From Corallococcus coralloides DSM 2259 (GTDB taxonomy: Bacteria > Myxococcota > Myxococcia > Myxococcales > Myxococcaceae): DNA of 64,000 nt. The stretch is taken from contig NC_017030.1 of the NCBI RefSeq assembly GCF_000255295.1, positions 4,712,001-4,776,000 of the forward strand, in the 5' to 3' direction. Below are positions 16,533-32,675 of the stretch, piece after piece. The translations under genes were made by a program, and so were the position numbers. The notes beneath the pieces were generated by a model, which did no database searches, was not told the origin of the DNA, and was given only the letters and a program-made list of their open reading frames with translations. The stretch's first letter is position 1. Each line of letters starts with the position of its first letter.

Positions 16533-19500
16533 TCACGCATCCAGGTGCGGTTCGTTGACACCGGGGCGGGCCTCCAGGAAGCGGAGCGCGCAGCGGATGT
16601 CGGACGACGCGGTCTCGCGTGGGGCGTTCCGGGCCGCTTCGATGCGGCGGCGGGCGGCGGCCCTGGCGTCGTTGCCCTCGGCGCTTCGCGGGGGCGCGGC
16701 GTCGGCTTCGGCCAGGTCGACCGCGGCGCGGAGCAGATCCACGAGCTGGAAGAGGGCAGGGTCCTCGCGCAGCTCGGGAGCACCGTCCAGGCCGGCGAAG
16801 CCTTCCCTCGCGGCGCGCAGGTCACCGCACGCGGCGTCCAGCGCGGCCCGGTGCGCGATGAACCGCAGGGCCTGCCAGCGGGACGCGCGGCCCAGGATGG
16901 TGACCGCCTCCGTCAGCGCCGCGCGTGCCTGCTTCCAGTCACCCCGGGCCAGCGAGGCGCGGCCCAGCTCGCCCAGCGCCGTGCCTTCCAGCAGCCGCTG
17001 CCCCAACAGCCGTGACAGGCGCACCGCGGACTCCAGGTGCTCGCAGGCCTCCGAGATGCCGCCCGCGTCCATCAGGTAGCAGCCCAGGTTGATGCTCGCG
17101 AGCGCCTGCCCCGCGCGGTCCTCCACGCTCAGCGCGCGGCCCAGCGCCTCGCCCAGGAGCATCACGGCTTCGCCGTCGTCGCCCGCCTCGCCAATGGCGA
17201 CCGCGCAGTTGGTGAGGAAGCCCACCTCGAACGTCACGTCGCCCACCTCGCGGAACAGCGCCAGCGACGCGCGCAGGTGGGGGATGGCCGCCTCCGGCCC
17301 ACGGCGCACCTGTTCGACGAGGCCCAGGTTGCCCACCGCGTAGGCCTCCAGCCAGCGGTCGCTTCCAGAAGGCAGCGCCTGCGCGTCGCGCATCAGCGTC
17401 CACGCGGCGGCCCCGTCCCCGGCGTGACGGGCGACGATGGACAGGTCCACGAGCACGCGCTTCTCCGACGTCGTCTCGTCCAGCGTGTGGAAGACGCCGC
17501 GCGCCTCCTCCAGGGCCTGGCGCGCATACTCCGCCTGTCCTGCGTCCATGTACGCGCGGCCCAGCACCGCGAGCGCCTCCGCGCGCTTCAGCGGCGCCAC
17601 GGCGACGTGGGCGGAAGACTCCAGCGCCCGCTCCAGCCGCTCCACGAGCAGCCCCACCGGTCCACGCGTGCGCGCATCCGGCTCCAGCGCCACCAGCGTC
17701 TCCAGCGCCCGGCTCAGGGACTCGGCGGTCGCGGGACGGACGGCCATCGCGTTGTCGCACGCGGCCAGCAGGTTCTCGCGCTCCAGGGCCAGCCGCCGCA
17801 GCGCCGTCGCGCCGCCCGTCTTCTGCACGCGCTCCCGCAGCCGGCCCGCGACCTGGAGGTACGTGTCCGCGTGCCGGGCCTCGCACGCCGCCTCGTCGCC
17901 CATCTCGCGCAGCCGCAGCGCCGCGTACTCGCGGATGCTCTCGTACAACCCCAGTCGCAGGAAGCCGCCGGGAGCTCCCACTTCGCGCGCGCACAGGAGC
18001 GACTGGGAGCGCAGCGAGTGCACCACCTCCAGCACGTCCGGCGAGCCCTCCGGCAGCACCAGCACGGCTTCGGCGGCCTCCAGCGTGAAGCCGCCCCGGA
18101 ACACCGAGCACTGCGCCAGCGCGGCGCGCTCGGCGGGCTCCAGCAGGTTCCACGACCAGTCGATGGCCCCCCGCAGCGTCGCCTGTCGCGCGGGCGCGTC
18201 CCGCCGTCCCACGCGCAGCAGGTCGAAGCGCTTCGACAGCCGTTCGCGCAGTTGCTCCACGCCCAGCACGCTCACTCGCGCGGCGGCCAGCTCGATGGCC
18301 AGCGCGATGCCGTCCAGCTGCCGCACGATGTCCGCGACGCGCGGGGTGTCCGCGTCCGTCAGCATGAAGTCGCCGCGCGTCTCCCGGGCGCGCTGCACGA
18401 ACAGGCGCACCGCGTCCGAGCGCAGGAGGACATCCCAGCGCGTCTCATCCGGATCCGGCAGGCCCAGCGGGGCCAGGTCCAGCACGCGCTCTCCGGGCAG
18501 GCGCAGGGCTTCTCGCGTGGTGACGAGGAAACGGGCGCACGGCGCCAGCACCCGCCAGCGCCCCAGCGTCGCGGGCACGTGCCGCACCACCTGCTCCACG
18601 TTGTCCAGGATGACCAGCACGTCGCCACATCCCGCGAGCGCGTGCCCCAGCCGCTCCGCGGGCGGGCTGCCGTCTCCGTCCGCGGTGAGCGGCACGCCCA
18701 GGGCCCGGCCCACCGCGTGGCAGAGGTCGCCCTCCGTCAGCGCCTCCTCCAGGTCGCACCGCCAGACGCCGCCCTCCCATGTGCCCGCGTCCGACTCCAG
18801 CGCGCCGAAGTGCGTGGCCAGCCGCGTCTTGCCCATGCCTCCCGGGCCCAGGATGCTGATCAACCGCGCGCCCTCCGACACCCACTGGCGAAGGGTGTTC
18901 AGCTCCTCCGCGCGCCCCACCAGGTCCTGCCGCAGCGTGGGCACGTTGCCGGGCCGCTCGCGCGGGGCGCGCAGGGGGCCGAAGCGGCGGTGCGCGAGCG
19001 ACGCGGGCAGCAGCTCCACCAGCGCCACGCTGTCGCTCACGCCACGCAGGCGGAAGGACCCCAGCGAGCGCGCGATGGGCATCCCCAGCGACGCCAGCTC
19101 CGGCTGGATGCGGGCCCACGCCGCGCCGCTCAGCAGCACCTGTCCGCCATGTCCCGCGCCCGCGACCCGCGCCGCGATGTTCACCGGAGGCCCCAGGTAG
19201 TCCAGCCGGTGCGTGGCCGGATCCAGGCGGCAGTCGGGCTCGCCCACGTGCACGCCCATGCGCACGCGCAGCCCCCGGTGGCTCAGTCCTTCCGGCGCGT
19301 GCTCCTCCGCCGCGTCCGGTTCTTCGAGCAGCGCCTCTGGCCAGCTCGCGTGCAGCAGGGCTTCCTGCGCGCGCAGGCACCAGTGCGCGGCCTCCACCGG
19401 CGACGCGAACGCGACCATGAAGGCATCGCCCTGCGACTTCACCTCGTAGCCGTCAGTGCCTGGCAGCAGCGCGCGCAGCACGCCGTCATGCAGCTCCAGC

Positions 19501-19679
19501 GCGTCGCGCATGGCCTGCCCACAGCGCTCCCACAGCCGCGTGGACCCCTGGATGTCGGTGAAGACGAGCGCCACCGAGCCGGTGGGCGGCAGGTGCCGGG
19601 CGGGCGGCGGAGCACATACGGAGGCGCCTTCGTCGGCCGGGGGCGCGACGACCGTGAGTCTTCGGAAGGCCTCTCCCAT
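16533..19679 (-). CDS. Adenylate cyclase domain fused to STAND-type ATPase and TPR repeats
   Basis: 1048 residues. A class III nucleotide cyclase domain (about 35-225) has the two metal Asp (D42 in FTDIQGST and D85 in KSQGDAF), the purine-selecting Lys81 and Asp160 and the transition-state Asn167 and Arg171 (DYLGPPVNIAAR), so it looks catalytically complete and specific for ATP. Then comes an NTPase module with Walker A GPGGMGKT, Walker B LVILDNVEQ and the TTREALRLPGERV segment typical of NB-ARC/STAND proteins, and a C-terminal region of TPR-like helices (GRAYMDAGQAEYARQALEEA and others). No membrane segment. Such proteins couple ligand sensing by the TPR/ATPase part to a cAMP output. ATG 19679 is chosen for GGGGAGAG 6 bases upstream. 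Confidence 0.88.
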   Translation of the reverse strand: MGEAFRRLTVVAPPADEGASVCAPPPARHLPPTGSVALVFTDIQGSTRLWERCGQAMRDALELHDGVLRALLPGTDGYEVKSQGDAFMVAFASPVEAAHWCLRAQEALLHASWPEALLEEPDAAEEHAPEGLSHRGLRVRMGVHVGEPDCRLDPATHRLDYLGPPVNIAARVAGAGHGGQVLLSGAAWARIQPELASLGMPIARSLGSFRLRGVSDSVALVELLPASLAHRRFGPLRAPRERPGNVPTLRQDLVGRAEELNTLRQWVSEGARLISILGPGGMGKTRLATHFGALESDAGTWEGGVWRCDLEEALTEGDLCHAVGRALGVPLTADGDGSPPAERLGHALAGCGDVLVILDNVEQVVRHVPATLGRWRVLAPCARFLVTTREALRLPGERVLDLAPLGLPDPDETRWDVLLRSDAVRLFVQRARETRGDFMLTDADTPRVADIVRQLDGIALAIELAAARVSVLGVEQLRERLSKRFDLLRVGRRDAPARQATLRGAIDWSWNLLEPAERAALAQCSVFRGGFTLEAAEAVLVLPEGSPDVLEVVHSLRSQSLLCAREVGAPGGFLRLGLYESIREYAALRLREMGDEAACEARHADTYLQVAGRLRERVQKTGGATALRRLALERENLLAACDNAMAVRPATAESLSRALETLVALEPDARTRGPVGLLVERLERALESSAHVAVAPLKRAEALAVLGRAYMDAGQAEYARQALEEARGVFHTLDETTSEKRVLVDLSIVARHAGDGAAAWTLMRDAQALPSGSDRWLEAYAVGNLGLVEQVRRGPEAAIPHLRASLALFREVGDVTFEVGFLTNCAVAIGEAGDDGEAVMLLGEALGRALSVEDRAGQALASINLGCYLMDAGGISEACEHLESAVRLSRLLGQRLLEGTALGELGRASLARGDWKQARAALTEAVTILGRASRWQALRFIAHRAALDAACGDLRAAREGFAGLDGAPELREDPALFQLVDLLRAAVDLAEADAAPPRSAEGNDARAAARRRIEAARNAPRETASSDIRCALRFLEARPGVNEPHLDA

Positions 19680-20043
19680 CTCCCGCTCTCCCCGATGCCA
19701 GGAACCCCCACCCGCTCCCACCCTCCTGTCGCCCGTGAGGGTGACACCCGTGCCGCTGGCGTCTCACATGGAAAGCAGTACGGGCCGGAACGGCAACGCG
19801 CACCTGCCGGGCAGGGTGGTGCGCCGCTAGTGAGCACTTGTGATCGCGCCGCGCGCGCATCCATCCACGGACGACATCCGCATGGCCCCGCGGGGCCGGC
19901 CGTCATCGCCTGCTCGCTTGCCGCTGGCGCCGGGGTCTGCCGGGCCCCATTCCAAGGAGGACGGGGGGCCGTGTTAGGACGGAGACACGTCCCGTCCCCG
20001 CGGCTGGAGCGCGAGGGCGCGACGCCTCTTCCTGGAAGGACTC
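19680..20043. other. 364-base divergent intergenic region
   Basis: No gene seen. A possible -10-like GTGTTAGGAC (19971-19980) overlaps an inverted repeat GGACGG (19977-19982)/CCGTCC (19992-19997) about 50 bases before the lipoprotein gene. The rest shows no structure I can name. The cyclase promoter must also lie here. Confidence 0.35.
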
Positions 20044-21676: not shown

Positions 21677-21718
21677 GGGCCTGTCTGGCGTTCACGCGCG
21701 CCTGCTAATCTGCGGGGC

Positions 21719-24004
21719 ATGCGATGGAGCTGGGTGGGGCTCTTGGCCGTGGTGCTCGCGTGCGCTGGCACTCCGCGTCCGGTGGTGGATACGCCTGGAC
21801 CGGCGGAGGATGTGGCGTGGATGTTCCGGGTCGTGGATCCGGACGGGCATCCCGTGGCCGGTGCGCGGGTGAGCGTCTGGCGCGCGGATCATCCGCCAAC
21901 ATACAACGTACGGTCGGGCACGACGGACGCACAGGGCACGGGCCACCATCTCCTGAAGCCGGGTTGGTATGCCGCGGAGGTCCAGGCGCGTGGCTTCGTG
22001 ACGGCATTCCGCACGGACATCCGGCTCGCGCCGGAATCCAAGCCGGCGCTCGACGTGTCCCTGACACGCTCTGCGTCACTCTCCGGGCGTGTGGTGGATG
22101 TGGAGGGGAAGCCCGTGCCGGACGTCCGGCTCCGGTTCGCTTCCTCCAACGTCGCCGCGCCCTTCGTGGAAGCCACCAGTGATGCGCAGGGCCAGTTCCA
22201 CTTCGAGGGCGCGGCCGCGGGCGAGGGCCTGCTCTACGTCGACAAGTGGGAGTGGAGCCCGCAGCGGTTGAAGATGCTCACGCCCCAGCCCGAGCTCACC
22301 GTCGTGATGGGGCGGCTGTCGTCCCTGCTCGTGCGGGTGGTGGACCCCGAAGGCCACCTGCTCCCGATGGCCAGGAGCTACGTCACCCCGCTGGATGGCC
22401 GGTTGGGCGTGGCGTACGAGTTCAAGCGAACGCCTGACGGACTGCTCCACCAACAACTCCCGGCGCAGCGCTACAGCGTGACAGGCCACTACAATCCGGC
22501 TCCCGGCTGCTGGTGGGGGCGCAGCGTGGACGTCGACGTCCTCCCCGGGCAGCAGGCCGAAGTCACCGTGAGCTTCGAGGGCGTCGCCACCACGAGCCCC
22601 TGGACGGGACGCGCGGTGACCCCCGATGGGCAGCCGCTGGCGGGCCTGTCGCTGTTTGCGACGTCGAACCCGTCTCCAGCAGGCATGCGCACCGGCGGCT
22701 TTTGCGAGACCACCACCGGACCCGACGGGCGCTTCGAGTGGATGCAGGCGCTCGCATGGCCCTACACGCTCAAGATCCGAACACGGGACTCTCGCGAGCA
22801 GGTGGGCGAGGCGGAGCAAGCGCCTTCCGACATGAAGGATGGACCCGTGGTGTTCCACTCGCCTGGAGCGCTGGTGGGACGCGTCCTCGGCCCTGACGGG
22901 AAGCCGCTGACCCGGTTCGACGTCGACTGGACCTCCAATGCCAACCCTGAAGGCCACTTCTTCCGGCGGTTGGATGCATCTCGCGCCTATTCGCTGATCG
23001 CCAGTGCTCCGAACCTGGCCCCGACGCGCGTGCGTGTCGAAGGCCGCGCACACGAGGTGCGGACGGTCCCGGACATCACGCTCGACGCCGGGCACTCCGT
23101 GGTGGGCCGGGTGTTCCAGGAGGATGGCCGCACACCCGTGCCCGAGGCGGGAGTCGAGCTGGTGGACCCCGCCGATGTGGACATCCGGCGCTCGCCCTCT
23201 CCCTATGAGCTTCCCGCCGACATGGCCGGCCGCTTCAAGTTCGACCATGTGCCCCGGCGGCGGCAATACCTTCGGGTGAATGACAAGAGGGCCGGAACCC
23301 TCCTGTATGAGCTGGGGACTCGCGAGGATCGGGTGGACCTCACGCTGAAACCCGACGGAGCGCTCGTAGGCTTCGTGACGGATGGCGCGCGGGTTCCGCT
23401 CGCGGGCGTGAAGGTGCGGGTGCGTTGCGAGGCCGGGCTCGATGCCCGTACCGAGACTGACGAAGCGGGCCACTACGTGCTCCGCGTTCCCGCGGACCGG
23501 GAGTGCTTCGTGCACGTCTCCGAGGAAGATCTCCGGGATGCGCCCTGGCCCAGGCCGCCGCCGCTCGTCTTCGCGCCCCAGGCTGTCTCGCTCTCACCGC
23601 GCGAGCGCGAGCGCAGGGATTTCGTGCCCCGAAGCACGGGCGCCTCGCTTCGGGTCGGCTTCCCCGAGCCACGCGAACGACTGGAGCCGTTCCTTGTCCC
23701 TGGCGACGCGCGCATGCCGAAGAACTTCGCGGAGTTGATGGCGCTTCAGCGGTCCGCCTTCAGCAACGACCCGCCCGCGTTTTCGTGGCGCTCGAATGAT
23801 CCGGACCTGCCTGGATATCAATTCCTGCAGAAGAACTTCGCCTTCAGCCATCTGCCAAGGAAGCGCTACACGCTCTTCGTCGTCGAACCCCAGGACACCG
23901 CGTTCGCGGTCCTGCGCGTGCCGGTGGACTTGACCCACGAGGAGACGAAGTCCCTCCCGCTCCGCTTCCCCCTGGAGAGTGGAGGGACGATGCTTGTCGA
24001 TTGA
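21719..24004 (+). CDS. Lipoprotein of repeated carboxypeptidase-regulatory-like modules, copy A
   Basis: 761 residues. A short leader, MRWSWVGLLAVVLAC, ends in a plausible lipobox (VLAC). The rest consists of about seven beta-sandwich modules of carboxypeptidase regulatory/Cna-B-like type, each recognisable by a D-G-x-P-x-x-G-x-x-V core followed by T-D-x-x-G and a G-x-Y strand (for example VVDPDGHPVAGARV near residue 40 and GFVTDGARVPLAGVKV near 545). The motif PGQQAEVTVSFEG marks the module boundary near 270. The C-terminal segment with FSHLPRKRYTLFVVEPQD is shared with copy D. Such modules usually serve as surface stalks or adhesins. First gene of a four-gene array; a TGCTAATCT box lies just upstream of the ATG. 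Confidence 0.75.
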   Translation: MRWSWVGLLAVVLACAGTPRPVVDTPGPAEDVAWMFRVVDPDGHPVAGARVSVWRADHPPTYNVRSGTTDAQGTGHHLLKPGWYAAEVQARGFVTAFRTDIRLAPESKPALDVSLTRSASLSGRVVDVEGKPVPDVRLRFASSNVAAPFVEATSDAQGQFHFEGAAAGEGLLYVDKWEWSPQRLKMLTPQPELTVVMGRLSSLLVRVVDPEGHLLPMARSYVTPLDGRLGVAYEFKRTPDGLLHQQLPAQRYSVTGHYNPAPGCWWGRSVDVDVLPGQQAEVTVSFEGVATTSPWTGRAVTPDGQPLAGLSLFATSNPSPAGMRTGGFCETTTGPDGRFEWMQALAWPYTLKIRTRDSREQVGEAEQAPSDMKDGPVVFHSPGALVGRVLGPDGKPLTRFDVDWTSNANPEGHFFRRLDASRAYSLIASAPNLAPTRVRVEGRAHEVRTVPDITLDAGHSVVGRVFQEDGRTPVPEAGVELVDPADVDIRRSPSPYELPADMAGRFKFDHVPRRRQYLRVNDKRAGTLLYELGTREDRVDLTLKPDGALVGFVTDGARVPLAGVKVRVRCEAGLDARTETDEAGHYVLRVPADRECFVHVSEEDLRDAPWPRPPPLVFAPQAVSLSPRERERRDFVPRSTGASLRVGFPEPRERLEPFLVPGDARMPKNFAELMALQRSAFSNDPPAFSWRSNDPDLPGYQFLQKNFAFSHLPRKRYTLFVVEPQDTAFAVLRVPVDLTHEETKSLPLRFPLESGGTMLVD

Positions 24005-24050
24005 TGCCAATGCCGCCGCCTCCACGACAGCCCCTGCTAACCTGCGGGGC

Positions 24051-26345
24051 ATGCGATGGAGCTGGGTGGGGCTCTTGGCCGTGGTGCTCGCGTGCGCGGA
24101 GGCGCCGCGTAAGGTGCAAACGAAGACCCGGTGGCCCGTGGAGGAGGTGGCGTTCACCGTCCGCACGGTGGATCCTGCCGGGCAACCCGTGCCCGGCGTG
24201 GCGCTGGTGGCACGCCGCGCGGACCAGGGGAGCCTCATCTCCCGGTCCGGGACTTCCGACGCGACCGGGACGGTGCGGCTTCGGGTGATGCCGGGCTGGT
24301 ATGTCGTCCAGGCGGAGGCGCCGGGGTTCGTGCGCACGCTCCACACGGACGCGCGGATTCCTCCGGGTGAGGAGGTCCGACTCGAGCTGACGCTGGCGCG
24401 TGCGGCGCCGTTCGCGGGGCGCGTGGTGGATCTGGAGGGACGGCCCGTCGCGGGGGCGCAACTCCGGCTCACTCCGTCCGCGGATGAGGAAGCAGCGCTG
24501 CATACCGAAAGCGATGGGGACGGACGCTTCCGCTTCGACAACGTGCCCGCGGGAGCCGTGAAGCTTCTCGCGGAGAAGGAGGAATGGAGCCCCACTCGGC
24601 TGAAGCTCGCGGCGCCACAGCCGGAGTTGACGGTGGTGATGGGCGGACTCAGCTCGCTGCGGGTCCAGGTGCGCAGGCCTGATGGCACGCTGTCATCCGC
24701 CGCTTCCTCCTCGATCTACCCCGAGGACGAGAAGGACTTCTTCGAGCTGTTCCCAGAGGAGCGCTCCGACGCCAAGGTCTTCCAGGGGCTTCGCGCCGGG
24801 CGATACCGCGTCTCCGGCAGGTACGCTCCCGCGTCCGGCGACTGTCTGTGGACTCGCGCCATTGAAGTCCAGGTCCTTCCGGGCCAGCAGGCGGAAGCGA
24901 CGGTGAGCTTCGAAGGAATCCAGGATGTTGGACCCTGGCGAGGCGTGGCCGTGGATGCGAGTGGCAAGGCCCTTGCCCCGGGGCAGGTGACGGCCTGGCT
25001 GGCGGATGGAGCGCTGGATGCCATGGGCCTGCATGGCCGGTGTGACGTCCGTTCGGAGCCGGATGGCTCCTTCGCCCTTCCGCACGTGTTCAAGGCACCG
25101 GTCAGCCTGGAATGGGCGGCCCAACCCACCATGCGCTGGTGGGTCAGCGAGCCGCTTCCAAGGGGAACGGGGGAACCGGTGACGTTCCGTCCCGGCATCG
25201 GATTGCTGAAGGGACGCATCCTGCGGCCGGATGGGCGACCCCAGGAGCGCTTCAAGGTCCACTCATATTCCGAGGAGGATCCGCGTGGCGAATACGACCA
25301 GATCGTCCCGTCGTCACACACGTACCAGTGGCTCATCGAAGCGGAGGGCTTCGCTCCCGCGCTCGTGCGCGGGGAGGGGCGTGAGCATGAAATCCTCACC
25401 GTCCCGGATGTCGTCCTCGACGTGGGCCGCACCGTCCACGGTCGCGTCGTCGCGGAGGATGGCAAGACGGGCGTGCCCGGGCAGCAGGTCGAGCTCGTGG
25501 AGGTCTTCGATCTGGAGACCCGGTGGAGGCGCCGGCCTCACACTGTGACGAGCGGTGCGGACGGGCACTTCCAGTTCGACCACGTGGCCAACCGCGGCCA
25601 GTTCCTGCGCGTGGACGCGAAGGCGCAAGGCACCGTCCTGCGTGGGCTCGAACCCGATGAGGTGTCGGTGCAGCTGCGGCTCGTGCCGGGTGCGGAGCTC
25701 GAGGGCTTCGTGACGGAGGGGGCTCGGGTTCCCCTGGCCGGGGTGAACCTGGAGGTCCGCTGCGAGGGTGGCTTCAAGGTGGACGCCCGAACCGACGCCA
25801 TGGGCCATTACTCGGTGCGCGTTCCGGCGAACCGCCCGTGCTTCATGCACGCCGAAGCGAGTCTCCTGAACGTCATGCCGAGGCCCCAGCCGCCTCGGGT
25901 GTTTTTCTCGCCGCGGCGGATCCTCCTGGCTCCGGCTTCGCATCACCGGTTGGACTTCGAGCCACGGCACGGGCCCGCTCACCTGCGAGTGAGCGTCAAT
26001 GCGTCCCGCGAGTTCGTCACGGCGTTCGTCCTGCCGGGGGATGTTCCGTGGCCGGGCTCACCGGGAGCCCTGGATGACCTCATCCGGGCCGGCTTCAAAC
26101 CGGAGCCATGGTCGAACTCATGGGTGTCGGAGGAAGGAGACTCCGTCTTCGTCCCCAGCTACAGGTCAGGAGCGCGGTTCGACTTCAGGAAGCTTCCCCT
26201 CGGGCGCTACACGCTCTTCATCCGGGAGGAGGAGCAGGGGCTCGACGAACTCCTGCGCATCCCCGTGGACCTGTCCCGGGACGGCGTGCATGCCGTCGAC
26301 TCAGAGCGGCCCGCTCGGAAGGGCGGAAGGCTGTACACACGCTGA
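24051..26345 (+). CDS. Lipoprotein of repeated carboxypeptidase-regulatory-like modules, copy B
   Basis: 764 residues, same leader as copy A (MRWSWVGLLAVVLAC) but continuing AEAPRKVQTKTRWPVEEVAF, a version shared with copy C. Module cores include VDPAGQPVPGVALV, VVDLEGRPVAGAQLRL and EGARVPLAGVNLEVRC. The boundary motif here is PGQQAEATVSFEG. A segment with S-H-T-Y-Q-W-L-I (about 425) and the ending KGGRLYTR also separate the B/C pair from A/D. The ATG at 24051 lies after a TGCTAACCT box almost identical to that before copy A. An upstream in-frame ATG (23979) lies inside copy A and was rejected. Predicted surface-anchored; no enzymatic signature seen. Confidence 0.75.
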   Translation: MRWSWVGLLAVVLACAEAPRKVQTKTRWPVEEVAFTVRTVDPAGQPVPGVALVARRADQGSLISRSGTSDATGTVRLRVMPGWYVVQAEAPGFVRTLHTDARIPPGEEVRLELTLARAAPFAGRVVDLEGRPVAGAQLRLTPSADEEAALHTESDGDGRFRFDNVPAGAVKLLAEKEEWSPTRLKLAAPQPELTVVMGGLSSLRVQVRRPDGTLSSAASSSIYPEDEKDFFELFPEERSDAKVFQGLRAGRYRVSGRYAPASGDCLWTRAIEVQVLPGQQAEATVSFEGIQDVGPWRGVAVDASGKALAPGQVTAWLADGALDAMGLHGRCDVRSEPDGSFALPHVFKAPVSLEWAAQPTMRWWVSEPLPRGTGEPVTFRPGIGLLKGRILRPDGRPQERFKVHSYSEEDPRGEYDQIVPSSHTYQWLIEAEGFAPALVRGEGREHEILTVPDVVLDVGRTVHGRVVAEDGKTGVPGQQVELVEVFDLETRWRRRPHTVTSGADGHFQFDHVANRGQFLRVDAKAQGTVLRGLEPDEVSVQLRLVPGAELEGFVTEGARVPLAGVNLEVRCEGGFKVDARTDAMGHYSVRVPANRPCFMHAEASLLNVMPRPQPPRVFFSPRRILLAPASHHRLDFEPRHGPAHLRVSVNASREFVTAFVLPGDVPWPGSPGALDDLIRAGFKPEPWSNSWVSEEGDSVFVPSYRSGARFDFRKLPLGRYTLFIREEEQGLDELLRIPVDLSRDGVHAVDSERPARKGGRLYTR

Positions 26346-26373
26346 CGCAAACGCATCGCGTATGCTTCGTGCC

Positions 26374-28692
26374 ATGCGATGGAGCTGGGTGGGGCTCTTG
26401 GCGGTGGTGCTCGCGTGCGCGGAAGCGCCGCGTCCGGTGCAAACGAAGACCCGGTGGCCCGTGGAGGAGGTGGCGTTCACCGTCCGCACGGTGGATCCGG
26501 CCGGGCAGCCCGTGCCCGGCGTGGCGCTGGTGGCACGTGGCGCGGATCGAGGGAGCCTGGTCATCAAGTCGGGCACCACGGATGCGACCGGCACGGCGCG
26601 GCTTCAGGTGATGCCGGGCTGGTATGTCCTCCAGGCGGAGGCGGCGGGCTTCGTGAGCGTGACCCGCACGGACGCGCGGGTCCCCGTCACCGGAGAGGCG
26701 CGTCTGGACGTGACGCTGGAGCGCGCGGCGCCCATCGCCGGGCGCGTGGTGGATGCGGCAGGGAAGCCCGTCGCGTGGGCCACGCTTCGACTCCGCCGTT
26801 CCAACGAAACCGTGTCCGTGCCGGAGACCCAGAGCGATGCGGAAGGGCGCTTCCGCTTCGACGGTGTTCCCGCTGGGAGCGTGATGCTTCAGGCGGAGAA
26901 GTACAAATGGAGTCCGACGCGGTTGGAACTCGTGGCGCCCGCGCCGGAGTTGACCGTGGTGATGGGGGGGCCCGGCTCGCTGCGCGTTCAGGTGCGCGGG
27001 CCCGATGGACAGCCATTGTCTGGAGGGCCTTTCTCCATCTCGTCCATGGATGACTTCGTGTCCATGGATGACATGAGCCCCGACGAGCTGTCCCCGGAGG
27101 AGGCGCAAGATGCCACCGTCTTCCCGCAGCTTCCCGCAGGGCGCTACAGCATCTCCGGCAGGTACACTCCCGTGCCCGGCTGTGAGTGGACTCGCGGCAT
27201 CGTGGTCCAGGTGCTTCCAGGCCAGCAGGCGGAAGCGACGGTGAGCTTCGAAGGCCTTCATGACGCTGGACCCTGGCGAGGGCGGGCCGTGGATGCCAAC
27301 GGCAAGGCGCTTGACCACGGGACAGTGACTGCCTGGTGGGCGGATGAAGAGCCGCATGGGCTGGGCTTGAGCGGCAGGTGCAAGGGCGTCGTGGGGCAGG
27401 ACGGCTCCTTCGCCATTCCGCACGTCTTCAAGGCTCCGGTCCTCCTGACATGGGAGGTCACCGAAGGGGCCCGGGGCCGGGAGGCGAGAGGTCCGTTTCC
27501 CACGGGAACGGGCGAAGCGGTGGTGTTCCGCAGTGTCATTGGAAGTCTGAAGGGCCGTGTCGTGCGCCCGGATGGACAGCCCGTGGGCTTCTTCGAAGTC
27601 AACGGACTCTCCCCGAACAATCCGCGGGGCGAGTACGTGCGATACGTGGACTTGACCCACACCTATCAGTGGGTCATCGACGTGTGGGGATTCGCCCCTG
27701 TGCTCGTGCGCGCGCAAGGGCGAGAAGGAGAAGTGCTCCAGGTCCCGGATGTCGTCCTCGAGGAGGGCCGCACCGTCCATGGCCGTGTCTTCGCGAGTAA
27801 CGGCCGCACGGGCGTGCCCCATCAGGAGGTCGAGCTCATGGAGGAGTTCGACCTGGACGGCAATGGACGCCCTCGCTCGCGGTGGGCGATGACCGACGCC
27901 GAGGGCCGCTTCGAACTCAAGCATGTGCCAGGCCGGCGCCAGTTCCTGCGCGTCGCTTCGAAGGAACACGGGACCGTGCTCCATGCGCTCGAAACCAATG
28001 AGACGGCGGCGCGGTTGCGGCTCGTTCCCAACGCGGAGCTGCACGGATTCGTGACGGATGGCGCGCAGGTTCCGCTGGCGGGGGTGAACCTGGAGGTCCG
28101 CTGCGAAGGTGGGTTCAAGATGAGCGCCAGAAGCGACGGGTCGGGCCACTACGCCATGAACATCCCGGCAGACCGCGAGTGCTTCGTGCATCCCGAAGGG
28201 AGCCCCCTGAACCTCCGGCCGCCTCGGCCGCCCCAGCCGCCTCCGGTGTTCTTCTCCTCGACGCGGCTGCGTGTTCCGTCCGGCTCACGGCAGTCGTCGG
28301 ATTTCGAGCCCCGTCAGGGGCCCGCGTCGCTGGAGGTGAGCGTCGAGGCCACTCTTGAGTTCGTCACCGCGTTCGTGCTTCCGGGAGACGTTGCATGGCC
28401 TCGCTCGCCCGAGGCGCTGGATGCCCTGATGCGGGCGGGTTTCGGAGCCGACCCGATGCCGAACACATGGGAGTCGGAGGACGGGAGTGAGTCCTTCGTT
28501 CCCCACTTCCTGTTGGGGGCGGACTTCCGCTTCAGTCATCTTCCCCTGGGGCACTACACGGTCTTCATCCGGGACGAGATGGACGGAGCGGACGCGATCC
28601 TGCGAATCCCCGTGGAGCTGACCAGGACCGGCGTGCACGTCATCAAGTCCGCGCGGCCCGGTCGCGGAGGCGGAAGGCCATACACGCGCTGA
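26374..28692 (+). CDS. Lipoprotein of repeated carboxypeptidase-regulatory-like modules, copy C
   Basis: 772 residues, closest to copy B (leader followed by AEAPRPVQTKTRWPVEEVAF, and ending GGGRPYTR). Differences from B concentrate in an acidic insert around residues 225-240 (DDFVSMDDMSPDELSPEE), where B has EDEKDFFELFPEE, suggesting a variable exposed loop. Seven modules are again visible. The ATG at 26374 is chosen because all four copies share the identical first residues; an ATG at 26362 four codons earlier is possible. It follows copy B by 28 bases and is probably on the same transcript. The pair B/C looks like the most recent duplication in the array. Confidence 0.75.
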   Translation: MRWSWVGLLAVVLACAEAPRPVQTKTRWPVEEVAFTVRTVDPAGQPVPGVALVARGADRGSLVIKSGTTDATGTARLQVMPGWYVLQAEAAGFVSVTRTDARVPVTGEARLDVTLERAAPIAGRVVDAAGKPVAWATLRLRRSNETVSVPETQSDAEGRFRFDGVPAGSVMLQAEKYKWSPTRLELVAPAPELTVVMGGPGSLRVQVRGPDGQPLSGGPFSISSMDDFVSMDDMSPDELSPEEAQDATVFPQLPAGRYSISGRYTPVPGCEWTRGIVVQVLPGQQAEATVSFEGLHDAGPWRGRAVDANGKALDHGTVTAWWADEEPHGLGLSGRCKGVVGQDGSFAIPHVFKAPVLLTWEVTEGARGREARGPFPTGTGEAVVFRSVIGSLKGRVVRPDGQPVGFFEVNGLSPNNPRGEYVRYVDLTHTYQWVIDVWGFAPVLVRAQGREGEVLQVPDVVLEEGRTVHGRVFASNGRTGVPHQEVELMEEFDLDGNGRPRSRWAMTDAEGRFELKHVPGRRQFLRVASKEHGTVLHALETNETAARLRLVPNAELHGFVTDGAQVPLAGVNLEVRCEGGFKMSARSDGSGHYAMNIPADRECFVHPEGSPLNLRPPRPPQPPPVFFSSTRLRVPSGSRQSSDFEPRQGPASLEVSVEATLEFVTAFVLPGDVAWPRSPEALDALMRAGFGADPMPNTWESEDGSESFVPHFLLGADFRFSHLPLGHYTVFIRDEMDGADAILRIPVELTRTGVHVIKSARPGRGGGRPYTR

Positions 28693-28720
28693 CGTGAGTC
28701 CATCGCGTATGCTTCGCGCC

Positions 28721-31003
28721 ATGCGATGGAGCTGGGTGGGGCTCGTTGCCGTGATGCTCGCTTGCGCGGGCACGCGTCCGGAATTGGAAACGCCCGGACC
28801 GGCGAATGAAGTGACGTGGGTGTTCCGGGTCGTGGATCCGGAGGGACAGCCTGTATCCGGCGCGCGGGTGAACGTCTGGCGCGCGGATCTGTCGCCTTCG
28901 TACGCGCAGCCCGGGACGACGGACGCGCAGGGGACGGGCAGCCTTCTCCTGAAGCCGGGCTGGTATGGCACGGAGGTCCAGGCGCGCGGCTTCGTGACGG
29001 CCTTCCGCGAGGACATCCGGATCGCGCCGGAATCCAAGCCGCGGCTCGAACTGGCCCTGGCGCGCTCAGCGCCACTCGCCGGTCGCGTGGTGGATGCGGA
29101 GGGGAAGCCCGTGCCGGGCGTCCGGCTCCGGTTCGCTTCCTCCAACGCCGCCGCCCCCTTCGTGCAAGCCGTCAGTGGCGAGGAGGGCCAGTTCAACCTC
29201 GAGGGCGCGGCCGCAGGGGAGGGCCTGCTCTACTCCGACAAGGAGGGATGGAGCTGGCAGCGACTGAAGGTCGTCACTCCCCAGCCCCAGCTCACCGTCG
29301 TGATGGGACGGCTCTCGTCGTTGCTCGTGCGGGTGGTGGATCCCCAGGGACGCCTGATTCCAAACTCCCACAGCAGCATCACCTACCTGGACCGGCCGGT
29401 GGGCATCCGGCATCAGTCCGAGCAGACGCCTGAAGGAACAGTTCACCAAATGCTCCCGGCGCAGCGCTATCGCGTGAGCGCCACCTACGCCGCGGCCCCT
29501 CGTTGCTGGTGGCGTCGCGCCGTGGATGCCGACGTCCTCCCCGGACAGCAGGCAGAAGTCACCGTGAGCTTCGAAGGAGCCACCAGCGCGGGCCCGTGGA
29601 CGGGCAGGGCAGTAACTCCCGACGGGCGGCCGCTGGCCAACATGAAGCTGCGGGCCACGGCGCCTCCCTCCGCGGAGGGCAGGGAGGCCGAAGACGCGTG
29701 TGAGGGTACGACCGGTCCGGACGGACACTTCGAGTTGCCGCATCCGCAGGCAGGGCTCCACCAACTCAGGGTCTGGCATTCGGCTGGGTCCCATGTGCGG
29801 GTCGGCGAGGCGCAACTCGCACCTTCCGACCTGAAGGACGGACCCGTGGTGTTCCGCTCTCCCGGCACCCTGGTGGGACGCGTGACCGGCCCTGACGGGA
29901 AACCCATGGCCTACTTCGACGTCGACTGGCAGAGCCAGTCCGACCGTGAAGGCCGCTTCATCCGGGGGCCGATCGTTTCCCGCACCTATTCGCTGCGAGT
30001 CGACGCTGCGTATGTGGCCCCCGCGCGCGTGCGTGTCGAGGCTCGCGCCCACGAGGAGCGAGAGGTCCCGGACATCCAGCTCGACTCAGGGCATTCCGTG
30101 CTGGGCAGGTTGCTCGAGAACGATGGCGTCACACCCGTGTCCAAGGTCTGGATTGAGCTGGTGGATCCTGCTGACGTGGACATCAAGCTTTGGAACTCCC
30201 GCTTTGGGGCCCACACCGACGAGGCCGGTCGCTTCCGATTGGATCACGTGCCTCGACGCCCGCAGTACCTGCGGCTGAATCGCCATGAAGGCGGGACCCT
30301 CCTGTATGAGCTCGGGGCCCGTGAAAGCCGGTTGGACCTGCGGATGAAGCCCGACGGGGCGCTCGAAGGCTTCGTGACGGATGGAGCGCGCGTTCCGCTC
30401 GCGGGCGTGATGCTGGAGGCGCGGTGTGGAGCCGGGCTCGACACCCGCACGAAGACCGACGAGGCCGGCCACTACGTGCTCCGCGTTCCCGCGGACCGGG
30501 ATTGCTTCGTGCATTTTCCGGTGGAGCTGCGCTGGCTCTATGCGTGGCCGCGGCCCACGCCGCCTGTCTTCTCTCCCCAGTCTGTTTCCCTCTCACCCCG
30601 CGAGCGCGAACGCAGGGACTTCGTCTCGAGGAGCAGCGGGGCGGGACTCCAGGTCCACTTCCCGGAGGTTCGCGAACATCTGGAGACGTTCCTCGTTCCT
30701 GGCGATACGCGCATGCCGCAGACGTTCACGGAGCTGAAAGCGCTCCAGCGGTCCGCCTTCATCAGTGATCCGGTTGTCCGCGCGTGGCGTACGGATGATC
30801 CGGACATGCCCGACGCTCGATATTGGCAGAAGGACTTCTCCTTCAGCCATCTGCCGGACAAGCGCTACACGCTCTTCGCCATCGAGCCCCAGGACGGCGC
30901 GTTCGCGGTCCTGCGAGTGCCCGTGGACCTGAAGCCGGGCGAGACGAAGTCCCTCCAGCCTGGCTTCCCCTCCGACAGTGGAGGCACGTGGTTCGTGCCC
31001 TGA
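28721..31003 (+). CDS. Lipoprotein of repeated carboxypeptidase-regulatory-like modules, copy D
   Basis: 760 residues, closest to copy A across the whole length (for example VRLRFASSNAAAPFVQA against VRLRFASSNVAAPFVEA, and the C-terminal FSHLPDKRYTLFAIEPQD). Its leader reads MRWSWVGLVAVMLAC. Its upstream flank, however, is like that of copy C, not A. Seven modules are visible, with the boundary motif PGQQAEVTVSFEG. It ends 8 bases before the stop of a convergent histidine kinase gene. Predicted lipid-anchored surface protein; no catalytic motif seen. The four copies may display related but distinct binding faces. Confidence 0.75.
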   Translation: MRWSWVGLVAVMLACAGTRPELETPGPANEVTWVFRVVDPEGQPVSGARVNVWRADLSPSYAQPGTTDAQGTGSLLLKPGWYGTEVQARGFVTAFREDIRIAPESKPRLELALARSAPLAGRVVDAEGKPVPGVRLRFASSNAAAPFVQAVSGEEGQFNLEGAAAGEGLLYSDKEGWSWQRLKVVTPQPQLTVVMGRLSSLLVRVVDPQGRLIPNSHSSITYLDRPVGIRHQSEQTPEGTVHQMLPAQRYRVSATYAAAPRCWWRRAVDADVLPGQQAEVTVSFEGATSAGPWTGRAVTPDGRPLANMKLRATAPPSAEGREAEDACEGTTGPDGHFELPHPQAGLHQLRVWHSAGSHVRVGEAQLAPSDLKDGPVVFRSPGTLVGRVTGPDGKPMAYFDVDWQSQSDREGRFIRGPIVSRTYSLRVDAAYVAPARVRVEARAHEEREVPDIQLDSGHSVLGRLLENDGVTPVSKVWIELVDPADVDIKLWNSRFGAHTDEAGRFRLDHVPRRPQYLRLNRHEGGTLLYELGARESRLDLRMKPDGALEGFVTDGARVPLAGVMLEARCGAGLDTRTKTDEAGHYVLRVPADRDCFVHFPVELRWLYAWPRPTPPVFSPQSVSLSPRERERRDFVSRSSGAGLQVHFPEVREHLETFLVPGDTRMPQTFTELKALQRSAFISDPVVRAWRTDDPDMPDARYWQKDFSFSHLPDKRYTLFAIEPQDGAFAVLRVPVDLKPGETKSLQPGFPSDSGGTWFVP

Positions 31004-31011
31004 ACCTGCGC

Positions 31012-32607
31012 CTACGCCCCCTCCACCGGCAGCGTCACCACGAACGCGGCACCGCCGCCGGGCGCGTCCTCCACCCAGACGCGGCCGCCGTGCGCTTCCA
31101 GGATCTGCTGCACGATGTAGAGCCCCAGTCCCAGGCCTCCCGTGCGCGCGGAGCCCTGCACCTGGGCGAAGCGCTGGAAGATGCGCTCCCGCTCGGCGAC
31201 GGGGACTCCCGGGCCGCCGTCCCGCACGGTCAGCCGCAGCTGCCCGTCCTGACGGCGCAGCGCCACCTGCACCGGCGTGCCCTGGCCGTATCTCAGCGCA
31301 TTGGAGAGCAGGTTGCTCAACACCTGCTCCATCCGGATCCGGTCGAACCGGCACGGCGCGGGCCCCTCCACGCGCGCGTCCAGCTCCACGCCGGCCTGCT
31401 TCGCCTCGTCCGCGAAGCGCGCCACCAGGTCCTGCACCAGCGGCGCCAGGTCTCCGCTCGCCAGCTCGAAGTCCAGCTTGCCCGTGCGAATGCGGCTCAC
31501 GTCCAGCAGGTTGTCCAGGAGCGCCGCCAGCCGCTTGAGCTGCCGGTCCGCCGCGTCCAGCCGCACCGTGACCTTCTCGGAGCCCACGGGCTCGTGGCCC
31601 TTGGACTCGGACATGCGGCGCAGAAGGTCGACTTGAAGACGCAGCGACGTGAGCGGCGTGCGCAGCTCGTGGCTCGCCACCGACAGGAAGTCGTCGCGCG
31701 TGCGCACCGCCTCCTGCAGCGCCTCCTCCGTCTCCTTCAGCGCGGTGATGTCCAGGATGGCCCCGCGCACCACCATCACCTTGCCGTTCGCGTCGCGGAT
31801 GACTCGCGACCGGCTGATCAGCCAGTGCCAGGTGTTGTCCGGCCAGTGCGTGCGGAAGGTGGAGGAGTACGACAGCACGTCGTTGTGGAAGATGGCCGAC
31901 ACCTGCGCTTCCACTGACGGCCGGTCGTCCGGATGCAGCGACGCCAGGAACCGCTCGTGCGTCCACTCCGCCAACGGCTGCGGGTAGCCGTAGAGCCGGT
32001 CATGCCCCTCCGAGCGGAACACCTGCCCGGTGACGAGGTTCGTCTCCCAGACCGCCATCTGCGCGGACTCCAGCGCCACCTGGAACCGCTCGCCCAGCTG
32101 GCGGAAGCGCTCCTCGGTGCGCGCGACCTCCGTCTCCGCGCGCTGACGGCGGGTGATGTCCGTGGCCAGCACCCACGTCTCGCCGCCCACCGGCCGCACG
32201 GACAGCTCCAGCCAGACGCCCGACGGCAGCTCCGACAGGAAGCGCGCCGGCTCGCGCGTGGTGAGCGCGTCCAGGAGCCGCTCGTGCAACGTCGTGCCGG
32301 CGAGCATCGGCTGCGCCGCCCACGGCGTCATTCCCTGGCAGGTGCCATAGGGCAGGCCCAGCAGCGACGCCGCGCGGTGGTTGAGCTCGTGGATGGTTCC
32401 CTGCGCGTCGAGCGCGAGGAACGCCTCGGACATCATCTCCCGCAGGACCTGCAAGCGGGTCTGCGCGGACATGCTGGCCTCGTCGGCCGGAACCGGGGGC
32501 TGATTCGCGTCTCGCGGCGCGCGCGCGGCAGCCGGGCCCGGTGAGGACGCATCGTCCTTGGACGCCTGGCGAACGGGTTCGAACGGACCACCGGGGAGGG
32601 GACTCAT
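31012..32607 (-). CDS. Cytoplasmic PAS-domain sensor histidine kinase
   Basis: 531 residues, no membrane segments. After a Pro/Ala-rich start there are two PAS domains (about 45-160, with GTIHELNHRAASLLGL, and about 175-300, with the PAC-like segment GAILDITALKETEEAL). The dimerisation/phosphoacceptor helix has SVASHELRTPLTSLR with His313, and the ATPase domain has the N box (NLLSNALRYG), G1 (DGGPGVP) and G2 (GGLGLGLYIV). It should autophosphorylate in response to a cytoplasmic signal sensed by PAS. No response regulator gene is adjacent, so it is an orphan kinase, common in myxobacteria. The ATG at 32607 is preceded by GGGAG at about 12 bases. Confidence 0.9.
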   Translation of the reverse strand: MSPLPGGPFEPVRQASKDDASSPGPAAARAPRDANQPPVPADEASMSAQTRLQVLREMMSEAFLALDAQGTIHELNHRAASLLGLPYGTCQGMTPWAAQPMLAGTTLHERLLDALTTREPARFLSELPSGVWLELSVRPVGGETWVLATDITRRQRAETEVARTEERFRQLGERFQVALESAQMAVWETNLVTGQVFRSEGHDRLYGYPQPLAEWTHERFLASLHPDDRPSVEAQVSAIFHNDVLSYSSTFRTHWPDNTWHWLISRSRVIRDANGKVMVVRGAILDITALKETEEALQEAVRTRDDFLSVASHELRTPLTSLRLQVDLLRRMSESKGHEPVGSEKVTVRLDAADRQLKRLAALLDNLLDVSRIRTGKLDFELASGDLAPLVQDLVARFADEAKQAGVELDARVEGPAPCRFDRIRMEQVLSNLLSNALRYGQGTPVQVALRRQDGQLRLTVRDGGPGVPVAERERIFQRFAQVQGSARTGGLGLGLYIVQQILEAHGGRVWVEDAPGGGAAFVVTLPVEGA

Positions 32608-32675
32608 CGGGTTTGCACGCTCCCGCACGGCCCCCGCGCCCGTCAAGCGAGCGCACGGGGTGTCCGGGCCGTCTG

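Follow-up and report, generated by a model that had tools for sequence, protein, structure and literature searches.

In the 64,000-nucleotide window of the Corallococcus coralloides DSM 2259 genome analyzed here, four large lipoprotein genes (A to D) form what is probably a birth-and-death array of outer-membrane-type lipoproteins, in which units made of a gene body and its downstream flank have been joined at a constant leader by homologous recombination. According to this reading, large lipoprotein genes would be gained and lost at one fixed chromosomal spot, the mobile unit being the body with the intergenic flank behind it, which would hold the promoter core of the next gene. Units would join at a nearly constant 48-base leader coding the entire signal peptide and the lipobox. 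Leader-to-leader recombination, inside the array or with DNA of relatives, and presumably of the RecA type, would remove, add or replace units in frame, and a new body would arrive behind a functioning promoter, start and export signal.

The four genes lie head-to-tail on the plus strand, with 760–772 codons per gene. On the left, the array is bordered by a PARG-type gene (PF10021; 20558..21676, plus strand; domain match at residues 109-256), whose true start probably lies further in, and on the right by a PAS/histidine kinase gene convergent to it (31012..32646, minus strand). Flank P1 (21677..21718), with a -10-like box TAATCT at 21706-21711, precedes gene A (21719..24004, 761 aa; leader at 21719..21766). 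The A-B intergenic region, flank P2 (24005..24050; box TAACCT at 24038-24043), is followed by gene B (24051..26345, 764 aa; leader at 24051..24098). Flank P3 occurs twice, between B and C (26346..26373; box TATGCT at 26361-26366) and between C and D (28693..28720; box TATGCT at 28708-28713), ahead of gene C (26374..28692, 772 aa; leader at 26374..26421) and gene D (28721..31003, 760 aa; leader at 28721..28768). All these features are on the plus strand, and the gaps within the array measure 46, 28 and 28 bases. Two out-of-frame open reading frames, at 21724-22182 (152 aa) and 26379-27053 (224 aa), start at the second ATG of the leaders of A and C and probably arose by chance. Further to the left, a 1062-aa reading frame with adenylate/guanylate cyclase, AAA and TPR domains lies on the minus strand (16533-19721).

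The locus was compared among 16 genomes of Corallococcus, a genus of predators living in soil, with one genome per species, labeled G000 (the genome of the window) to G015. Close family members are present in 12 of them (E ≤ 1e-30), and the array family occupies a single spot, bounded by the PARG-type and kinase genes, with zero to four cassettes. The kinase gene has a single match in each of the 16 genomes (E ≤ 1e-120), the PARG-type gene is conserved in the 15 other genomes, and the border genes are 79–96% identical to those of the window. Copy number and order, which the original prediction had proposed to compare among strains, differ among these species in the number, type and arrangement of cassettes: A-B-C-D in G000, X-C-B in G014, C-D in G012 (D in two pieces), X-B in G001, X-E in both G003 and G006, X with a D-like gene bearing a large internal loss in G013, Y-Y in G015, and one gene in G002 (E), G004 (C), G011 (Y) and G007 (a Y split into two parts, both about 85% like one of the G015 Y genes). 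Type X stands in first place in all five of its genomes; Y, its sister type by body comparison, comes first in three genomes and additionally second in G015. Bodies of different types are 28–62% identical, and A and D 66%. The sites of G005, G008, G009 and G010 are empty, with about 20–57 bases between the aligned ends of the border genes. In the kinase-gene tree these genomes fall in two places, both inside the Y-bearing half of the genus. This placement fits losses, with separate gains as a possible alternative.

The 23 array genes are accompanied by four copies located elsewhere (G000:C1:4260931-4263204, G013:C1:2641647-2643929, G015:C107 and G007:C354), making 27 family genes. The outside copies of G015 and G007 share one neighborhood, while the other pairs are alike over parts of the gene only. 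All four outside copies have more divergent leaders. Seven loci from a named collection all belong to Corallococcus (C. exercitus, C. interemptor, C. carmarthensis, C. terminator, two of C. praedator, and Corallococcus sp. AS-1-6). Close members were found in none of 80 genomes from other genera of Myxococcaceae (E ≤ 1e-60, best 11 candidates per genome), and a 14-member profile, again scoring the best 11 candidates per genome, detected weaker relatives in 12 of the 80. Near full-length distant relatives (E around 1e-110) were noticed at three loci of another genus of the family (L111-L113, in G056, G063 and G073), where the matches begin past most of the signal peptide. No description of the array was found in the titles and abstract openings of the matches listed on Corallococcus lipoproteins, comparative genomics and myxobacterial kin recognition.

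The encoded proteins begin with a short lipoprotein signal, MRWSWVGLLAVVLAC. Judged by eye, a hydrophobic stretch and a V/L-A/G-C lipobox are present in all 24 full-length family proteins, in which position +2 is never Lys (Ala in 23, Val in one) and position +7 is never Ala. Under the +2/+7 residue rule quoted in PMC5562445, these residues suggest that the family is anchored in the outer membrane. Each of A-D contains three to four stretches matching the carboxypeptidase regulatory-like domain of Pfam. The structure model of protein A (mean pLDDT of 84) is nearly all beta, and a reading of its strand list would give about eight beta-sandwich domains in tandem. A Foldseek search against the PDB gave mainly proteins built of serial Ig- or Cna-like domains (pilins, TIE protein, contactin), with low query TM-scores of 0.06–0.13 among the 50 matches listed; no function of A follows from the matches. 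No toxin domain appears among the Pfam matches of A-D, and defense-system models gave no match to the four array proteins. Differences between bodies peak at residues 676-708, 349-366, 226-240 and 574-588, and right behind the cysteine.

Within the window, the mosaic described by the original prediction was recovered. The bodies group as A with D (66% protein identity) and B with C (62%), the remaining four pairs showing 39–41%, whereas the near flanks group as A with B (18/20 identical over bases -20 to -1) and C with D (19/20). The 16-base start shared by all four genes has exactly four mismatch-free occurrences in the 10,080,619-base genome, all in the array, and the identical block in fact extends to 24 bases. 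The contention that this discordance reveals exchange at the leader did not stand as it was argued. Indeed, the flank before one gene is the tail of the gene preceding it, and a discordant grouping of flanks and bodies therefore follows from tandem phase alone, which weakens the argument to the point that it was rejected as proof of exchange. Over bases -60 to -21, 27 of 40 positions are identical between C and D and 10 of 40 between A and B: A and B share just a short core, some 20 bases long, and the likeness of C and D extends further upstream because this stretch consists of the tails of the sister genes B and C. Hence, the A-B core is the one flank likeness that needs a cause other than tandem phase. 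The outer flank of A matches the one ahead of the leading G014 gene (X) at 39/40 bases, and the last 20 bases before A are 15/20 like those of that gene and 18/20 like those of B, which is suggestive, over few sites, of a junction in the upstream flank of A. The other part of the claim, a leader acting as a recombination seam, is supported by the comparison across genomes and by the trees.

Across the genomes, the downstream flank is fixed for the body type: X is followed by P2 in five of five cases, A by P2 (1/1), and internal C and internal B by P3 (3/3 and 1/1). Upstream, type C and the A/D group are each found behind P1, P2 and P3, type B behind P2 and P3, and type E behind P1 and P2; directly behind P1, bodies of types X, Y, C, E and A occur in different genomes. 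Since the downstream flank is tied to the body and the upstream flank is free, the unit comprises the body and the downstream flank, joined at the leader. Candidate junctions illustrate this arrangement. The first gene of G012 has an outer flank resembling the one ahead of X, the leading gene in G014 (37/40, vs. 15/40 for the second gene, a C), and a body like that of the C gene (1923/2193, vs. 1041/2142 for X), with a leader identical to both (48/48). Likewise, the second genes of G001 and G003 are alike in promoter core (19/20) and leader (47/48), and their bodies, of types B and E, match at 1445/2196 positions; compared with B of G000, the second gene of G001 is closer in its body (1650/2211) and not in its leader (44/48). 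Some deletions ended outside a leader, as indicated in G014 and G001 by what appear to be the last nine codons of a lost D, after the stop of B and before the kinase gene (25/27 and 22/27 like D, respectively; next best type 19 and 18).

Leader and body histories were compared using 19 of the 23 array genes, leaving aside three broken genes, the gene of G002, whose leader carries an insertion, and the four outside copies. Separate leader and body trees, proposed by the original prediction, disagree: the 48-base leader rejects the body topology with a delta lnL of 67–69 (AU p < 1e-13), or 63.6 when identical rows are kept. Taken with the differing array content and order, this is the contrary of the pattern named as refuting the original prediction. 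For ten control windows of the same length, taken from the most conserved ungapped stretches of the bodies, delta lnL was 5–17, and six of them also mildly reject the body tree (AU p 0.008–0.04). All ten windows are more variable than the leader (0.26–0.35 vs. 0.10) and are thus not matched for constraint, which is why simulation and column-shuffle controls were added. When 60 leader alignments were generated by simulation along the body tree under the fitted model, delta lnL averaged 8.7 and reached at most 15.2. On its own tree, the leader attains an lnL of -219.5, better than all 40 column-shuffled alignments (best -233.2); hence it holds a tree-like structure of its own. By parsimony, the leader requires 49 steps on the body tree, compared with 51.8 ± 2.9 under shuffled labels, and 92 of 500 shuffles are equally good, whereas each of the ten body windows beats all 500 shuffles. 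In these 19 intact genes, hardly any of the body phylogeny is visible in the leader. The signal index is 0.41 in the window across the start (-12 to 11), between -0.06 and 0.11 inside codons 1-16, and 0.65 in the first window beyond the lipobox, so that the switch from leader to body is abrupt at codon 17, right behind the lipobox cysteine. When genomes were left out one at a time, the control-window index stayed at 0.59–0.69 and the leader index at 0.01–0.16, except without G001, where it rose to 0.28 (9 of 300 shuffles equally good) and a weak link between leader and body appears. Nor does the leader tree hold for the -20 to -1 core (105 steps vs. 109.4 when shuffled; 64 of 300 shuffles equally good). 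Together, leader trees, flank linkage and junctions across genomes bear out the proposal that different bodies came to stand behind a promoter core and signal peptide that stayed nearly constant.

The leader and the bases preceding it are also marked by constraint. A TANNNT box stands 6–8 bases ahead of the start in 26 of the 27 family genes (spacing of 6 in six genes, 7 in 18 and 8 in two; 6 or 8 in the outside copies), including each of A, B, C and D, the sole gene lacking it being the broken gene of G007; the background rate is 33 of 3844 ATGs (one strand of the compared locus stretches). Shine-Dalgarno-like motifs (GGAG, GAGG, AGGA) are present in none of the 27 genes within the stretch scanned for them. 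A 2011 survey takes such boxes as a mark of leaderless genes and found them in 8 of 33 delta-Proteobacteria (PMC3160421). Each array gene thus probably makes its own leaderless mRNA, transcribed from its own -10 box and with the start codon at its very 5' end. Such transcripts may be widespread in the genus: in G000, TANNNT-N7-ATG occurs 220 times vs. 139 for the reversed pattern, and the counts at a spacing of 3 are 110 vs. 116. A scan for sigma-70 consensus promoters found none, which leaves the conserved -10-like box as the basis for proposing promoters. The second codon reads CGA in 25 of the 27 genes, including all four outside the array, where silent sites constant in the leader are constant too. 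Despite this, CGA makes up 5.6% of the Arg codons of the bodies, which argues for selection on the letters themselves. In our reading, promoter core, start and signal peptide would be kept near-identical by selection, and we infer that the resulting leader repeat serves as the recombination substrate.

The shortness of the leader and the constraint acting on it limit the reading of an array joined at its leaders. It is nevertheless quite improbable that no exchange occurred, i.e., that selection on leaderless translation and on the signal peptide fixed the leader and that its odd tree reflects chance likeness over few free sites. The CGA codon and the constant silent sites, found in outside copies too, would fit this explanation, as would the absence of leader homogenization within arrays (similarity not above expectation, p 0.28); grouping of leaders by genome was not found either. 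However, simulations on the body tree at fitted rates stay far below the observed value, the leader is tree-like in itself, and units occur in different orders and behind different flanks. The different bodies behind P1 and the leader tree are also left unexplained if genes were simply duplicated together with the flank behind them and the window's pattern arose with no later exchange; this very unlikely account explains the C-D likeness through the tails of B and C, but falls short once the other genomes are considered. Another candidate is programmed phase variation, with a site-specific recombinase working close to the starts as it does in the mycoplasma Vpma/Vsp loci. It would fit a constant start sequence for each lipoprotein gene with variable bodies, yet it is extremely improbable given four genes on one strand, each with a -10-like box. 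No match to the tyrosine recombinases (PF00589), the one recombinase family searched for, lies nearer than about 271 kb to the array, and switching by a tyrosine recombinase was rejected on that distance.

A further possibility, which we regard as rather unlikely, is that whole blocks or single genes were imported from other lineages via the long conserved border genes, leader-to-leader events being minor. The conservation of these borders is in line with such import, as are the divergence rates. In four same-type pairs (B, C, E, X), body dS is 0.21–0.26 vs. 0.09–0.15 for the neighbors, left-border values of two pairs with G001 being excluded for bad alignment. Besides, C of G000 shows no more than 65% likeness to its counterpart in G012, the nearest relative of G000 by kinase gene. 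In a fifth pair (Y, G015/G011), however, the body dS of 0.20 equals that of the neighbor (0.19), and border-gene import explains neither the abrupt change at codon 17 nor flanks that are tied to the body downstream and free upstream. The dN/dS ratios are 0.36–0.47 for eight body pairs and 0.17–0.43 for neighbors, and none of the body values shows positive selection over the whole body.

An array joined at its leaders would provide a simple way to alter a surface protein while it continues to be expressed and exported. As promoter core, start and export signal would form one constant segment, a joined body should be expressed and exported immediately. Variable bodies built as a row of beta-sandwich domains and held by a lipid anchor would suit a role in binding or recognition, and as a guess the bodies might be surface proteins of a binding or adhesin-like kind, whose diversity would stem from encounters with kin, prey or phage. 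That the array is an active recognition repertoire, in which lineages of natural Corallococcus populations add, drop and swap bodies at the leader so frequently that the sets on display differ between neighbors and decide kin merging or prey contact, appears unlikely on present evidence; alongside TraA and SitA, the locus is nonetheless a candidate for variation in self/non-self recognition or prey contact. It would offer a small, readily checked example of how surface proteins evolve by modules in a predatory bacterium with social behavior, and with its conserved borders and empty sites, one PCR should suffice to survey it in strain collections.

Several known systems share part of this organization. 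Like SitA, the polymorphic lipoprotein toxins of myxobacteria (PMC5562445), the array genes encode variable myxobacterial lipoproteins of the outer-membrane type, a location that is predicted here; unlike SitA, they show no toxin domain and no immunity gene between copies, and they vary along the whole body. A SitA-type toxin was rejected, as A-D lack such a domain and the gaps leave no room for immunity genes. The mycoplasma Vpma locus, which encodes surface lipoproteins and rearranges beside start codons (PMC2268961), is similar in holding a lipoprotein family at one locus with change adjoining the start codons, but it requires the adjacent recombinase Xer1 and one promoter, whereas no tyrosine recombinase match lies beside the array and each of A-D has a putative promoter box. 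Closer parallels are described in staphylococci and streptococci. Staphylococcal esaG and streptococcal tipC are tandem immunity paralogues with conserved blocks as recombination points (PMC9484751), and they share with the array tandem paralogues at one locus, loss and expansion, and discordant block trees. In esaG, however, three blocks lie within and behind the gene, whereas the Corallococcus array has a single 5' block corresponding to the whole signal peptide, its bodies stay whole, and its products are lipoproteins instead of immunity proteins. The csa1/lpl tandem lipoprotein clusters of Staphylococcus aureus, described as “gene accordions” (PMC7360770), likewise combine tandem lipoprotein paralogues, changes in copy number and a unit spanning gene borders. 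They belong to a different protein family and change has been shown there within clones, whereas the array was compared among species, with one genome each, and also has empty sites among them. Two features that define these clusters were found in Corallococcus, namely head-to-tail paralogues at one locus whose number varies among the 16 genomes and a conserved block whose tree conflicts with that of the variable part. By analogy, the Corallococcus array would work like the staphylococcal tandem paralogue clusters described in these two reports (PMC9484751; PMC7360770).
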